NCBI GenBank assembly: GCA_026387895.1 | Contig: JAPLKT010000148.1 | Location: 1-64,000 of the forward strand | Length of the DNA stretch: 64,000 nucleotides | Source: Gemmatimonadota bacterium | GTDB lineage: Bacteria; Gemmatimonadota; Gemmatimonadetes; Gemmatimonadales; Gemmatimonadaceae | Direction of reading: 5' to 3' | Shown: positions 28,039-32,976 of the stretch, one piece after another | How the letters are laid out: the number at the start of each line of letters is the position of its first letter | How positions within the stretch are numbered: position 1 is the first letter of the stretch | Translations under genes and position numbers: made by a program | The notes under the pieces: model-generated | What the model was told of the DNA's origin: nothing | Databases searched by the model: none | Seen by the model: only the letters and a program-made list of their open reading frames with translations

Positions 28039-28235
28039 GGGCGCGGTGGCTGGGCCAGGCTCGGGGGGGGCTGGAACTTCTGGGCAAGCTCCTCTTATAC
28101 AAATATGGTGACACAGCGGCGGCTTGCCGAGTATTACAAGTGTAGCAACCAGAGCGAACTCGACGTTGATTAGCGGTGGCGGTTTGTTAGGCGCAGGGAT
28201 AATCTGCGGGACTACCCCCCGACCAACGCGAGTCT

Positions 28236-28802
28236 GTGACTGAAATTGATCCAAGTGTCCCCATTCGTGCCCAGCGAGGCGACGAACAGGCGTTTCTGGA
28301 GATCGTGGAGTTCTACTATCCGCGGTGCCTCCGTTTTGCCCGCAACATGATGGGGAACGAACAGGATGCTGAGGAAGCGGTTCAGGATTCTTTCGTGCGT
28401 GTGCACGACAGCTTCCCCCGCTTCCGTGAAGAGGCGCGGTTTGATCCGTGGCTCTTCCGAATCTTGGCCAATCGGTGTCGGACGTTGTTGGCACGTGCCA
28501 AGCGGCATCGGGAACTGATTGAGTATGGGGAGGTACCACTGGCTATCGCGTCAGCGGCCTCTCCCATTGAGCTCGAAGAGGAGTTCGGCACCGACTGGGC
28601 CGAGGAAGTGCGGATTGGACTGGAGACCCTTCCGGCCGAGCAACGAGAAGCCTTCCTACTCCGGCATGTGGAAGATCTGAGTTACGAGGATATTGCCGTA
28701 ATCACCGGCGCTGGATTGTCGGCATTGCGGATGCGAGTGAAGCGGGCGTGCGACACGCTCCGCATACGGTTGACTGAGGTGGAACGTAGAAATGGAACTT
28801 GA
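28236..28802 (+). CDS. ECF-type RNA polymerase sigma factor
   Basis: Region 2 YYPRCLRFARNMMGNEQDAEEAVQDSFVRVHDSF; region 4 LPAEQREAFLLRHVEDLSYEDIAVITGAGLSALRMRVKRA. Confidence 0.95.
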   Translation: MTEIDPSVPIRAQRGDEQAFLEIVEFYYPRCLRFARNMMGNEQDAEEAVQDSFVRVHDSFPRFREEARFDPWLFRILANRCRTLLARAKRHRELIEYGEVPLAIASAASPIELEEEFGTDWAEEVRIGLETLPAEQREAFLLRHVEDLSYEDIAVITGAGLSALRMRVKRACDTLRIRLTEVERRNGT

Positions 28803-29415
28803 ACGCGACGAAACAATCGAACGGGTAGCGCAGACGCTGGCGGTGTTACCGCCACGCGACGCGCAGGCCGTGTCGCGCGTGATGACGGCGGTCCACGCGC
28901 ACCAGGCGCAGCGGCCAAGCCGGCTCACGCTCGTTATGGAATGGATGCGTCAGCCCTCGTTCTCGGTGGCCTCGGCGGGCGCGTTGGCGGCGGCGGCATT
29001 GGTGCTCGGGTTCTTCTCGCGCGGGGCATTCGGCAATGCCGGATCCGATCAGAGTGCCCGTTCAACCCTCGAAGGACAGCCGACGGGCGAGTTCCCGATC
29101 CCGGCAGGCGTAGTGCTCCCTGCCAGCAACTCGCATGAGGTCCGGGCATTGCCTGTGTCACTCGTGTTCGACGCGCGGAACGCGAAAAGTGTCGTGGTCG
29201 TTGGCGACTTCAACGGCTGGGACGACAGCAAGACCCCGATGGTGCGCTATGGCAAGGACGGTCCGTGGACGGCAACGGTGCTCGCGAAGCCCGGCCGTCA
29301 TGTCTACGCCTTCTTGGTGGACGGCACCACGCTGGTCGCCGACCCCCGTGCACCCCGTACAAAAGACCTTGATTACGGTGGCGATGCCTCCGTGCTGATG
29401 GTGACTCCTCCATGA
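28792..29415 (+). CDS. Membrane-anchored protein with CBM48/AMPK-like E-set domain; candidate anti-sigma factor
   Basis: About 50-aa cytosolic segment, TM FSVASAGALAAAALVLGFFSRG, then SVVVVGDFNGWDDSKTPMVRYGKDGPWTATVLAKPGRHVYAFLVDG; overlaps the sigma gene by 11 nt. Confidence 0.8.
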   Translation: MELERDETIERVAQTLAVLPPRDAQAVSRVMTAVHAHQAQRPSRLTLVMEWMRQPSFSVASAGALAAAALVLGFFSRGAFGNAGSDQSARSTLEGQPTGEFPIPAGVVLPASNSHEVRALPVSLVFDARNAKSVVVVGDFNGWDDSKTPMVRYGKDGPWTATVLAKPGRHVYAFLVDGTTLVADPRAPRTKDLDYGGDASVLMVTPP

Positions 29416-30062
29416 ATTTCATTCGCAGCTGTGCCACGGTCGCCGCCCTCGTTGTTGCGGTCGCCAGTACTGCGTCGGCGCAACAGGACGCTCGGCTGAC
29501 CCTGATTCGCGACGACGCCACCCGTGAAGTGGTTCGCCAGCAACTTGGCGGTGCTCTGTCGCGGGGGGTGCCGGTCGAGCCGATGATGGCCAAGGCGCTC
29601 GAAGGGGTGGCCAAGCGTGCCAGCACCAAGTCGATTAGGGCCGCGATGGCGCGTTTGGAAGAGAACTGGCACCGCGCCGCGAAGGCGCTGGCGCCGAATC
29701 CGACCGACGACGAACTGGGCGCCGGCGCGGATGCGCTGCAGCAGAACGTCCCCGAATCTGCGCTCCGGTCGCTCAGAAAGCTGGCGCCCGGCCGGTCGAT
29801 TGCGCTGGAGATTGGGGTGTTGACGCAGCTCGTGGCCCGCAATGTGGAGCCCGGACAGGCATCGAAAATGGTGCTCGAGCTTATGGCGCGGAAGGCGACA
29901 GGGACGCAACTTACGGCACTCAGCAGCGCCGTTCAGGAAGACGTTGAGGCCGGACTTGCTCCGGCCATGGCGCTCGACCTGCGAGGGCGCGGCATCATGT
30001 CCCTCCTTCCCCCGCCTTCTGCCGTGTCGACGCTGAATCCTCGATCGACGCCGAGGCCTTAA
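29412..30062 (+). CDS. Exported protein of unknown function
   Basis: Signal peptide MNFIRSCATVAALVVAVASTASAQQ; 4-nt overlap with upstream CDS. Confidence 0.75.
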   Translation: MNFIRSCATVAALVVAVASTASAQQDARLTLIRDDATREVVRQQLGGALSRGVPVEPMMAKALEGVAKRASTKSIRAAMARLEENWHRAAKALAPNPTDDELGAGADALQQNVPESALRSLRKLAPGRSIALEIGVLTQLVARNVEPGQASKMVLELMARKATGTQLTALSSAVQEDVEAGLAPAMALDLRGRGIMSLLPPPSAVSTLNPRSTPRP

Positions 30063-30071
30063 GGCCTTGCG

Positions 30072-31223
30072 ATGACCCCGCGGCTAGCCGCGCGGGTGAT
30101 GTTCTTGGGGGGGCTGCTCACCGCACCAGTGGCGGGACGAGCGCAGTCTCCTCAGGAACTCCGTGTGGAGGTAGGAGCCGCGGAGTTAAAGCAACTCGGA
30201 CGCGACATTCGCACCGCCACGCTCCTCAACGTGTCCTGGCAGCGCACGGAGACTCGGTTTGCGTCGATGTTCTCCACCGGTGCCACTTGGGCGCGCGACA
30301 GCATGGCTGCCTTGCAGAGCGTTGCCGCACTCGTGTGGCGGCCGTCCGCGGAAAGCCGATTCACCACAGAGGCAGGGGCAACCGGAGCGATTTCCGGGCT
30401 CTCCAATATCGGACGGGGGGGGAACGCCAGCACGTATCTGCGCCAGCGTGTGCGCTTCGGCGAGGGCGGGCTGTGGGGCGGTGCGGCGTTCGGGAGCTCC
30501 ATGCGCGACGCAGCGACGAGTCATGGCACTGGGGTCGATATGGGCGCCTGGGGGCGAATCGGCGCCCTGCAGGGCTCCATGATGATCGCGCGGTATCGGA
30601 CTGATGATTGGCCTCTTTTCGAGGCAGCGCGAATTTATTTGAACCGCGATGCCGCATCATATGATGTCAACGATGCCACGGTCGCGCTGCATTACGAGCG
30701 TGGCGATCTCACGCTGGACGCCTCGCAGAGCTGGCGCGACGGCACGCGGACGACCGACGTGACGCAGTCCGCGCTGTTCGGCGCGCTCGCTTGGAAGTTC
30801 AGCCCGCGGTACGCGGTTACCGTCTCCGGCGGCCGGCAACTGGCAGACCCTGTTCGCGGCGCTCCTGACGCGCGGATTCTCTCCGCGGCTCTCCGCTACA
30901 CCTGGGCCACGGTTCGCGAGTCGGACGACGACTACGGGGCCAGTTCCTACGTCCGAATGGTTCCCACGGATGGGGGTGGCACGGTATTTATCCACGTCGT
31001 CGCACCTGAGGCGGCACTCGTTACCGTGGCCGGAAGCTTCTCGGGCTGGGAGCCGATCCAGCTCCGGCGCGTCTCGGATGGGTGGGAGGCTGAGCGTGTC
31101 TTGAAGCCAGGCCGGTACCGGATTGCAGTCAAGATTGACAACGGCCCGTGGCGCTCGCCCGGGAACTTGGCGAAGATGAAGGACGAGTTTGGCGGCCAAA
31201 ACGGCCTGATCATCATTCCTTGA
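30072..31223 (+). CDS. Exported barrel-like protein with C-terminal CBM48/AMPK-like E-set domain
   Basis: Signal peptide ending VAGRAQ; alternating hydrophobic/polar strands; C-terminal LVTVAGSFSGWEPIQLRRVSDGWEAERVLKPGRYRIAVKIDNG. Confidence 0.75.
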   Translation: MTPRLAARVMFLGGLLTAPVAGRAQSPQELRVEVGAAELKQLGRDIRTATLLNVSWQRTETRFASMFSTGATWARDSMAALQSVAALVWRPSAESRFTTEAGATGAISGLSNIGRGGNASTYLRQRVRFGEGGLWGGAAFGSSMRDAATSHGTGVDMGAWGRIGALQGSMMIARYRTDDWPLFEAARIYLNRDAASYDVNDATVALHYERGDLTLDASQSWRDGTRTTDVTQSALFGALAWKFSPRYAVTVSGGRQLADPVRGAPDARILSAALRYTWATVRESDDDYGASSYVRMVPTDGGGTVFIHVVAPEAALVTVAGSFSGWEPIQLRRVSDGWEAERVLKPGRYRIAVKIDNGPWRSPGNLAKMKDEFGGQNGLIIIP

Positions 31224-31230
31224 GGACGAC

Positions 31231-32523
31231 ATGACGACCCGTCGCACGTTCATGAAAGGGCTGGCTGGAGCCGGCGTTGCACTGCCGATCATGCGGGAGA
31301 ACGCATTCGGTCAGATCTTCAAGGCGAACGCGATCGCGGGCGATCGTCCCGCACTCGCGGTGGCTGAGGACGAACAGTACTGGGCCCTGATCCAGCGCGC
31401 GTTCGACACCGACCGCACGATGATCAACCTGAACAACGGCGGCATTTCGCCCACGCCGACCCATGTGCTCGAACAGCTGATTCGCGATCAACGGTTCGTG
31501 AATGAACTTCCGGTGGAGCACATGTGGCGCGTTCTGGAGCCACGCATGGAGAGCACGCGCCGCGATCTGGCGCGCGAGTTCGGTTGCGATATCGAAGAGA
31601 TGGCAGTGGTGCGCAACGCATCGGAAGCGAACGAGATCATGATTTTCGGTATCGATCTCAAGCGCGGCGACGAAGTGCTGACCACCAATCAGAACTACGG
31701 CCGGATGATCAACTCCTGGCAGCAGCGTGAGCGTCGCGAGGGAATCGTGCTCAAGCAGATCTCCTTCAAGGTGCCGCCGCCGTCGGACGAGTACATCGTT
31801 GAGCAGTTCCGGAAAGCGATTACTCCGCGGACGAAGGTCATTGAGGTTACGCATATCACGAACCTCAGCGGGCAGATCATGCCGGTGCGCGATATCGTGC
31901 GCATGGCGCGGCCGCTGGGCATTGAAGTGTTTGTAGACGGTGCGCACGCCTTCAATCATTTCCCCTTCAAGCGCGACGACCTCGAAGTCGATTACTACGG
32001 CACGTCGCTGCATAAGTGGACGCTCGCGCCAATCGGCACGGGATTTCTCTACGTCCGCAAGGAAAAGATCTCCAAGCTCTGGTCGCTCATGGGGTCAGGC
32101 GAAGGCAATGTGGCCAACATCCGGAAGTACGAGGAGATTGGCACGCACCCGCAGGCGAACTTCAATGCGGTGAGCGCTGCACTCGCCTTCAGCCGTGGCA
32201 TTGGTGCCGATCGCAAAATTGCGCGCCTGCGCTACCTGCGTGACCGATGGGCGAACCGCCTTCTTGCCGAGAGCGATCGCGTGAAGGTGCTCACTCCGTT
32301 GGGCCCGGACAAGTCGGGCGCCATCTGCATGTTCAATGTGGACGGCATCGATCCGGTGAAGCTCGGCGGCTGGTTGATGGCAAACTATCGCATCGTCAAC
32401 ACGCCGATCGTGCATCCCGAGTTCCAGGGCATTCGCATTACGCCAAACGTCTACACCAGCATCGACGAAATCGACATCTTCTCGGAGGCCGTGCTCAAGG
32501 CCATCCAGAAGGGCATCGCATAA
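31231..32523 (+). CDS. Tat-exported class V aminotransferase-like PLP enzyme
   Basis: Twin-Arg TTRRTFMKGLAGAGVALP; NLNNGGISPTP, DGAHAFNHFPF, SLHKWTLAPIGTGFLYV (Schiff-base Lys). Confidence 0.88.
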   Translation: MTTRRTFMKGLAGAGVALPIMRENAFGQIFKANAIAGDRPALAVAEDEQYWALIQRAFDTDRTMINLNNGGISPTPTHVLEQLIRDQRFVNELPVEHMWRVLEPRMESTRRDLAREFGCDIEEMAVVRNASEANEIMIFGIDLKRGDEVLTTNQNYGRMINSWQQRERREGIVLKQISFKVPPPSDEYIVEQFRKAITPRTKVIEVTHITNLSGQIMPVRDIVRMARPLGIEVFVDGAHAFNHFPFKRDDLEVDYYGTSLHKWTLAPIGTGFLYVRKEKISKLWSLMGSGEGNVANIRKYEEIGTHPQANFNAVSAALAFSRGIGADRKIARLRYLRDRWANRLLAESDRVKVLTPLGPDKSGAICMFNVDGIDPVKLGGWLMANYRIVNTPIVHPEFQGIRITPNVYTSIDEIDIFSEAVLKAIQKGIA

Positions 32524-32535
32524 AGGAGCTTCATT

Positions 32536-32976
32536 TTGGTAGCGAAGACGCAAGCTGTGACCTCGGCCCCGCACCAAGATGGTGCGTGGGCCGAGTGGTT
32601 CGTGCGTACGCCAGGGGAAACACGGTTCTGGCTCGTGAAGAGTGAGCCCGATGTGTTCTCGTTTGAGCAACTGCTCAAGACGCCCAAGCAGACCACGTGT
32701 TGGGACGGTGTGCGGAATTTTTCCGCGCGCAACTTTCTGCGCGATGGCACGCTCGATGCGACGCACGACCATTTTGACGCGAAGTCCAACCCCGCCGCGC
32801 CGATCTGGTTCATGGTCGACCTCAAGGCTGTGGCGCCGCTTACAACGCCGGTGACATTGGCGGCCATTAAGGCGACCAGGTCACTGGCGGAGATGGCGAT
32901 AATTCGTACCGGCAGACTGTCGGTGATTCCGGTCTCCACTACGGAGTGGAAGACGATTCTGAGGATGGCCGAATGA
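32536..32976 (+). CDS. EVE domain protein with internal in-frame deletion
   Basis: RFWLVKSEPDVFSFEQLLKTPKQTTCWDGVRNFSARNFLRDG...WFMVDLKAV..PVTLAAIKA..RLSVIPVSTTEWKTIL; FYHS region absent. Confidence 0.85.
   Translation: MVAKTQAVTSAPHQDGAWAEWFVRTPGETRFWLVKSEPDVFSFEQLLKTPKQTTCWDGVRNFSARNFLRDGTLDATHDHFDAKSNPAAPIWFMVDLKAVAPLTTPVTLAAIKATRSLAEMAIIRTGRLSVIPVSTTEWKTILRMAE

Follow-up and report, generated by a model that had tools for sequence, protein, structure and literature searches.

RpoE-RseA, SigK-RskA and SigW-RsiW are pairs of an ECF sigma factor and a class I anti-sigma factor in which the sigma gene overlaps the gene of a single-TM anti-sigma factor with a cytosolic helical segment and an extracytoplasmic sensor domain, and in which the promoter is self-directed. 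The locus described here resembles them in each of these respects, the promoter being a candidate one, but has a CBM48/AMPK-like E-set for its sensor, a cytosolic segment that is short in Gemmatimonadota and, nearly always, two more exported genes. In FecARI, a component of the outer membrane touches, in the periplasm, a sigma regulator seated in the inner membrane, and the TonB-dependent receptor carries an STN domain. A putative outer-membrane component, a proposed periplasmic contact to the sigma regulator and a TonB-dependent receptor as likely target are common to both. In contrast to FecARI, the putative outer-membrane partner (gene 4) lacks STN and plug and has a CBM48-like domain in their place, and the predicted SusC target has no STN domain and lies outside the operon (FecARI-type cell-surface signalling is reviewed in PMC9249621). 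RsiV, an anti-sigma factor that acts as ligand receptor for lysozyme, offers a precedent for a receptor role of the outer domain (PMC5014341). The glycogen-binding domains of AMPK beta and CBM48 resemble the present domain by sequence and profile similarity and by an invariant W100 equivalent; here, however, the domain is found on a membrane anti-sigma-like protein and the equivalents of K126 and N150 are replaced.

The individual parts are of known kinds, and their combination does not appear to be described: neither an anti-sigma factor with CBM48/AMPK1_CBM nor the gene combination was found in the literature outside most subscription journals and the ECF-classification supplements. A 2020 survey linked about 79% of Gemmatimonadetes ECF sigma factors to class I anti-sigma domains, the average being 32%, and did not settle the reason for this excess (PMC7406223). 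Part of the explanation could lie in the present module, for which as many as 8 gene 2-like matches were counted in one genome. The module would also add the CBM48 fold to the sensors of trans-envelope signalling, and its defined candidate promoter and candidate target make signal, ligand and regulon directly testable.

The window (the whole stretch analysed, 64,000 nt) belongs to a Gemmatimonadota draft genome of 2.85 Mb in 154 contigs, and the nearest public match of its gene 2 is in the Gemmatimonadetes MAG Kiruna2_bin-2303 (92% identity over gene 2). A sequence-only reading had described four tightly packed genes in it, encoding an ECF sigma factor, a single-TM protein of anti-sigma topology without Cys/His zinc finger, a secreted protein and a barrel-like exported protein. 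The four ORFs were verified, all coordinates (Table 1) and spacings agreeing with that description: genes 1 and 2 overlap by 11 nt, genes 2 and 3 by 4 nt, and genes 3 and 4 are separated by a 9-nt gap. Gene 1 is an ECF sigma factor as judged by Sigma70_r2 (1.3e-15) and Sigma70_r4_2 (1.3e-12) matches in Pfam. The topology of gene 2 was borne out by the hydropathy of 62 homologues, which show a single hydrophobic peak with a mean start around residue 63. The zinc motif HxxxCxxC (ZAS Hx3Cx2C) occurs in 0/62 of them, and 56/62 have no Cys before the TM.

Table 1. Features of the locus and its immediate surroundings, in window coordinates
Feature	Position	Strand	Basis
Promoter-like motif GGTGAC-N16-GAGTA (family form TGTGAC-N16/17-GGGTA), predicted autoregulatory ECF promoter	28107..28133	+	motif score
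Gene 1 (sig), ECF sigma factor, sigma2 + sigma4, 188 aa, GTG start	28236..28802	+	Pfam
Gene 2 (asf), membrane anti-sigma-like protein, 207 aa	28792..29415	+	CBM_48; anti-sigma model in homologues
Gene 2 cytosolic segment, residues ~1-55, putative sigma-binding	28792..28956	+	alignment, distance correlation
Gene 2 transmembrane helix, residues ~56-75	28957..29016	+	sequence, hydropathy of 62 homologues
Gene 2 periplasmic CBM48/AMPK1_CBM-like domain, residues 122-207	29155..29412	+	profile match to AMPK beta-1 CBM
Gene 3 (g3), exported all-helical protein, 216 aa	29412..30062	+	no Pfam/NCBIfam family; AF2 model
Gene 4 (g4), exported, possible outer-membrane barrel + C-terminal CBM48-like domain, 383 aa	30072..31223	+	Porin_4, beta periodicity
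Gene 4 C-terminal CBM48-like domain, residues 300-383	30969..31220	+	AMPK1_CBM in homologues; AF2 pLDDT ~60-84
Fifth gene, Tat-signal class-V PLP-dependent enzyme	31231..32523	+	Aminotran_5 1.5e-37

The sequence-only reading had staked its proposal on the gene set being conserved as neighbours in relatives, and it is. We compared the window with 60 fetched Gemmatimonadota neighbourhoods and two others, counting genes as adjacent when spaced by -40 to 60 nt. Among these loci, sigma gene and gene 2 were adjacent in 60/61 pairs and genes 2 and 3 in 61/63; genes 3 and 4 were adjacent in 48/60, a count that includes some wrong gene 4 assignments. The four genes are adjacent, and mostly overlapping, in nearly all 60 neighbourhoods. 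A gene 2 homologue is present in 120/151 genomes of the order (E<=0.001), and a gene 3 homologue in 156/251 genomes of the phylum, all of them, among the matches listed, in the class of the window. Several other families of this class have genes 3 and 4 swapped (sig-asf-g4-g3). Beyond the phylum, gene 3 matches were found in 4/197 sampled Bacteroidota genomes, all four within a complete sig-asf-g4-g3 set. G126, one of the genomes in the source genus, lacks the module. In the phylum of Blastocatellia (199 genomes), gene 3 matches were short and marginal and were accompanied by no other module gene; this phylum was not retained.

Taken together, we favour, with a probability of roughly 0.6, an auto-regulated trans-envelope sigma/anti-sigma switch in which signals would be relayed from gene 4 and gene 3 to gene 2 and a SusC-type importer would be the target. 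Gene 2 would be an inner-membrane, non-zinc anti-sigma factor holding the ECF sigma factor through its cytosolic helices and listening in the periplasm via its CBM48-like E-set. Gene 4, probably in the outer membrane and equipped with a second E-set, would act as the upstream sensor of a presumed ligand, with the exported helical gene 3 product as periplasmic partner. The signal would be passed by contact between gene 4, gene 3 and gene 2, in an order that we infer, and the sigma factor would be released. Once free, the sigma factor would act on the TGTGAC-N16/17-GGGTA promoter of its own operon, giving positive feedback; in the closest genera it would also transcribe a TonB-dependent import operon of the SusC/RagA type. 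The broader claim, to which we give somewhat less than even odds, is that these loci form an undescribed multi-copy trans-envelope ECF family, spread in Gemmatimonadota and part of Bacteroidota as an STN-free counterpart of Fec. In this family, an outer-membrane protein and an anti-sigma factor would communicate via paired CBM48-like E-sets, together with a dedicated helical protein of the periplasm, and the system would control both itself and nutrient import of the SusCD type.

The same genes could instead compose an envelope-stress sensor of the RseA/RseB kind, in which gene 2 would sense outer-membrane protein that is unfolded or unassembled, with gene 3 standing guard in the periplasm and gene 4 serving as reporter or effector; the E-sets would then be modules for protein-protein contact only. 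RseA does match the N-terminus of 2/52 Gemmatimonadota gene 2 homologues, below its curated cut-off; PRK13920 anti-sigma-E models and, weakly and in one copy, RseA_N match gene 2 of Bacteroidota. The strict promoter motif found only at the system's own operon and the loss of glucan contacts from gene 2 (see below) would also suit a stress sensor. Nevertheless, the best second target is a SusC-type nutrient importer, no chaperone or protease was seen by eye among the relaxed motif sites, and the number of gene 2-like matches per genome suggests many specific signals, not one general stress. We consider a stress sensor, including the roles it would assign to genes 3 and 4, unlikely, and keep the relay switch as the preferred reading.

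The outer domain of gene 2 had been taken as E-set/CBM48-like, and both CBM_48 (7.2e-8) and AMPK1_CBM (1.1e-7) match it over the Pfam cut-offs. Both models match in 52/52 family members, and the family profile aligns to the AMPK beta-1 CBM (1z0n) with an E of 6.6e-13. The similar domain predicted at the end of gene 4 was recovered as well: AMPK1_CBM matches in 39/46 homologues (E<=0.1), and the match of the window copy (4.6e-5) falls just short of the Pfam cut-off.

In AMPK, glycogen is contacted by W100, K126, W133 and N150 (PMC4032982), and mutations of W100, K126, W133, L146 and T148 reduce glycogen binding (PMC2642990). AKINbeta2, with two Trp only and no equivalents of K126 and N150, still binds starch (PMC4032982). 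All gene 2 homologues keep the W100 equivalent (62/62). At the K126 position 51/62 have Ala and 0/62 Lys, at the W133 position 39/62 have Trp while the window copy has Leu, and at the N150 position 58/62 have Ser. Direct alpha-glucan sensing by window gene 2 is doubtful since 1/4 AMPK contacts, the W100 equivalent only, is kept, and the substitutions suggest that gene 2 of the source species probably does not bind glucan. In gene 4, both Trp equivalents are conserved (W326 in 55/55, W360 in 53/55) while those of K126 and N150 are not kept; because AKINbeta2 binds starch with only two Trp, the gene 4 E-set could, by analogy, bind glucan.

A rival reading is a glucan sensor proper, in which the periplasmic CBM48 of gene 2 would bind maltodextrin or a glycogen-like sugar, the sigma factor would be released and uptake genes induced. 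The profile match to the AMPK beta-1 glycogen-binding domain, the invariant W100 equivalent, the frequent Trp at the W133 position, the two Trp of gene 4, the starch binding of AKINbeta2 and a SusC-type importer as predicted target all argue for it. Against it stand the Ala and Ser at the K126 and N150 positions together with the Leu at the second Trp in the window, contact changes of a kind that lower glycogen binding in AMPK, and the lack of any glucan enzyme adjoining the operon in the window. We regard this as a doubtful explanation. As to the proposal that an envelope glycan or a partner protein is sensed through paired E-sets, the conserved sigma/anti-sigma-type module with two E-sets stands, whereas the glucan contacts of gene 2 do not support glycan binding by this protein.

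Upstream of the operon we found a bipartite motif, TGTGAC-N16/17-GGGTA. Its core TGAC-N16-GGGT is present in 24/59 upstream regions, compared to 9 for the best pair in shuffled sequences. A motif score was devised after the operon motif had been seen and was then tested on other promoters; it reaches >=13 in 28/59 operon upstreams and in 0.9% of random 200-nt windows. The extended form AAATGTGAC-N16/17-GGGTA occurs once per genome in six sister-genus genomes, each time at the operon, and its reversed control gave 0 matches in the six genomes. Strict TGTGAC-N16/17-GGGTA has 0 matches in the source genome because the species uses variants. With a relaxed motif, eight genomes yielded 24 sites, 8 at the operon and 16 elsewhere; 5/24 are upstream of SusC/RagA-type receptors.

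These receptors were followed by their upstream regions. In two genera, 13/15 upstreams of SusC/RagA orthologues score >=13, compared to 1.9% of random 400-nt windows; binomial p-values for such counts overstate significance, because the SusC orthologues are related and the score was built on the operon motif. A Fisher value computed from a selected subset was not relied upon. In a third operon-bearing genus, 4/6 SusC upstreams reach this score; in other, more distant operon-bearing genera only 1/14 do, and there the connection to SusC fails. The site in the source genome is a variant, TCTGAC-N16-GGGTA. The predicted SusC target has a Plug domain and no STN domain. This distribution suggests that the SusC-type import operon is a likely target of the operon's sigma factor in the closest genera. 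In the source genome the predicted target operon (L199:1844-8406) consists of the SusC-like receptor and three further ORFs: a 576-aa lipoprotein-like ORF that takes the SusD position and has no Pfam match, a second lipoprotein-like ORF of small size, and one for a DUF4397 protein.

We infer that gene 1 reads TGTGAC-N16/17-GGGTA, although another ECF sigma factor could read the same motif. The motif might even be that of some other sigma factor, or of one with a more general role, the operon then being no more than one target among others, as the 16/24 relaxed sites elsewhere in the genomes and the motif at 5/15 paralogous SusC genes of the two genera (score >=13) would suggest. However, six genomes have the extended motif at the operon and nowhere else, and SusC homologue upstreams stay under the threshold in genomes without the operon (0/10); we hold this explanation to be improbable and retain the predicted autoregulation by gene 1. 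A second -10-like box, GATAAT, lies downstream of the ECF-type motif (28199-28204), and a GTGGCG-N16/17-GATAAT-like pattern was seen by eye in relatives; it is perhaps a housekeeping promoter.

For the relay switch, gene 2 has to hold the sigma factor. As the criterion for class I (ASD) anti-sigma factors has it, gene 2 adjoins an ECF sigma gene. The NCBIfam anti-sigma model NF052375 matches 14/52 Gemmatimonadota homologues (best 1e-5) and 4/4 Bacteroidota copies, where the best anti-sigma model reaches 4.6e-7; a comparison with anti-sigma families, suggested by the sequence-only reading, returned such models in both phyla, all of them below curated cut-offs. No Pfam anti-sigma model matched the short Gemmatimonadota cytosolic segment, and a PDB profile search with this segment returned no anti-sigma structure. 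Across 52 loci, the strongest partial distance correlation of the segment is with the sigma factor (0.23), compared to 0.00 with its own CBM; such co-variation is no more than suggestive. We consider gene 2 a putative class I anti-sigma factor that would bind gene 1 via its cytosolic segment. That it is instead an activator bound to the membrane, or a protein that is co-transcribed but unrelated, as a short segment without Pfam anti-sigma match might allow, is very improbable given the anti-sigma model matches and the strict coupling to the sigma gene.

The export of gene 3 had been proposed, and a signal peptide is seen by eye. Its family has no Pfam or NCBIfam match. The AF2 model is all-helical, with 9 helices and a mean pLDDT of 80, and a PDB fold search with it gave no match at E<=0.001; the best matches, designed helical repeats, had an E of 0.012 and low TM and were not retained as its fold. 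For gene 4, called barrel-like and exported, export stood and the barrel was only weakly supported. Porin_4 matches were found in 3/46 homologues, beta periodicity is modest in the family (z 2.0) and weak and mixed in single sequences, and AF2 of three sequences gave an unusable barrel part (pLDDT ~17-30), only the CBM being modelled. A homologue profile search yielded no Plug/STN match. We consider gene 4 probably an outer-membrane protein.

Two apparent fusions were not accepted: in a gene 3-gene 4 fusion (L112) the signal-like stretch of gene 4 is translated in frame, and a sigma-gene 2 fusion (L119) looks like a frame break. Some gene 3 copies in G022, G259, G051, G064, G110, G109, G244 and G075 carry one in-frame stop, possibly as decaying paralogues or through assembly errors. 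A T9SS plug protein model weakly matched the CBM of a gene 4 (L261:3916-5184) and 4/52 gene 2 homologues, a hint that the T9SS plug protein contains a related E-set. In the same Bacteroidota genome a DUF4382 protein is encoded immediately 3' of the module (L261:6270-7094). Free-standing CBM48-like proteins of ~107 aa are encoded in a Desulfobacteraceae MAG (L035:5926-6249) and in Marinomonas (L038:5932-6255).

The PLP enzyme gene begins 7 nt past gene 4 and is probably co-transcribed with the operon in the source genome; it adjoins the operon only in close genera (18 matches in the 60 neighbourhoods plus the window). The enzyme shows weak PvdN similarity, and 12 nt further on a small EVE-domain-like gene was seen by eye (31231-32976 for both); the pair is found downstream of the operon in most close relatives.
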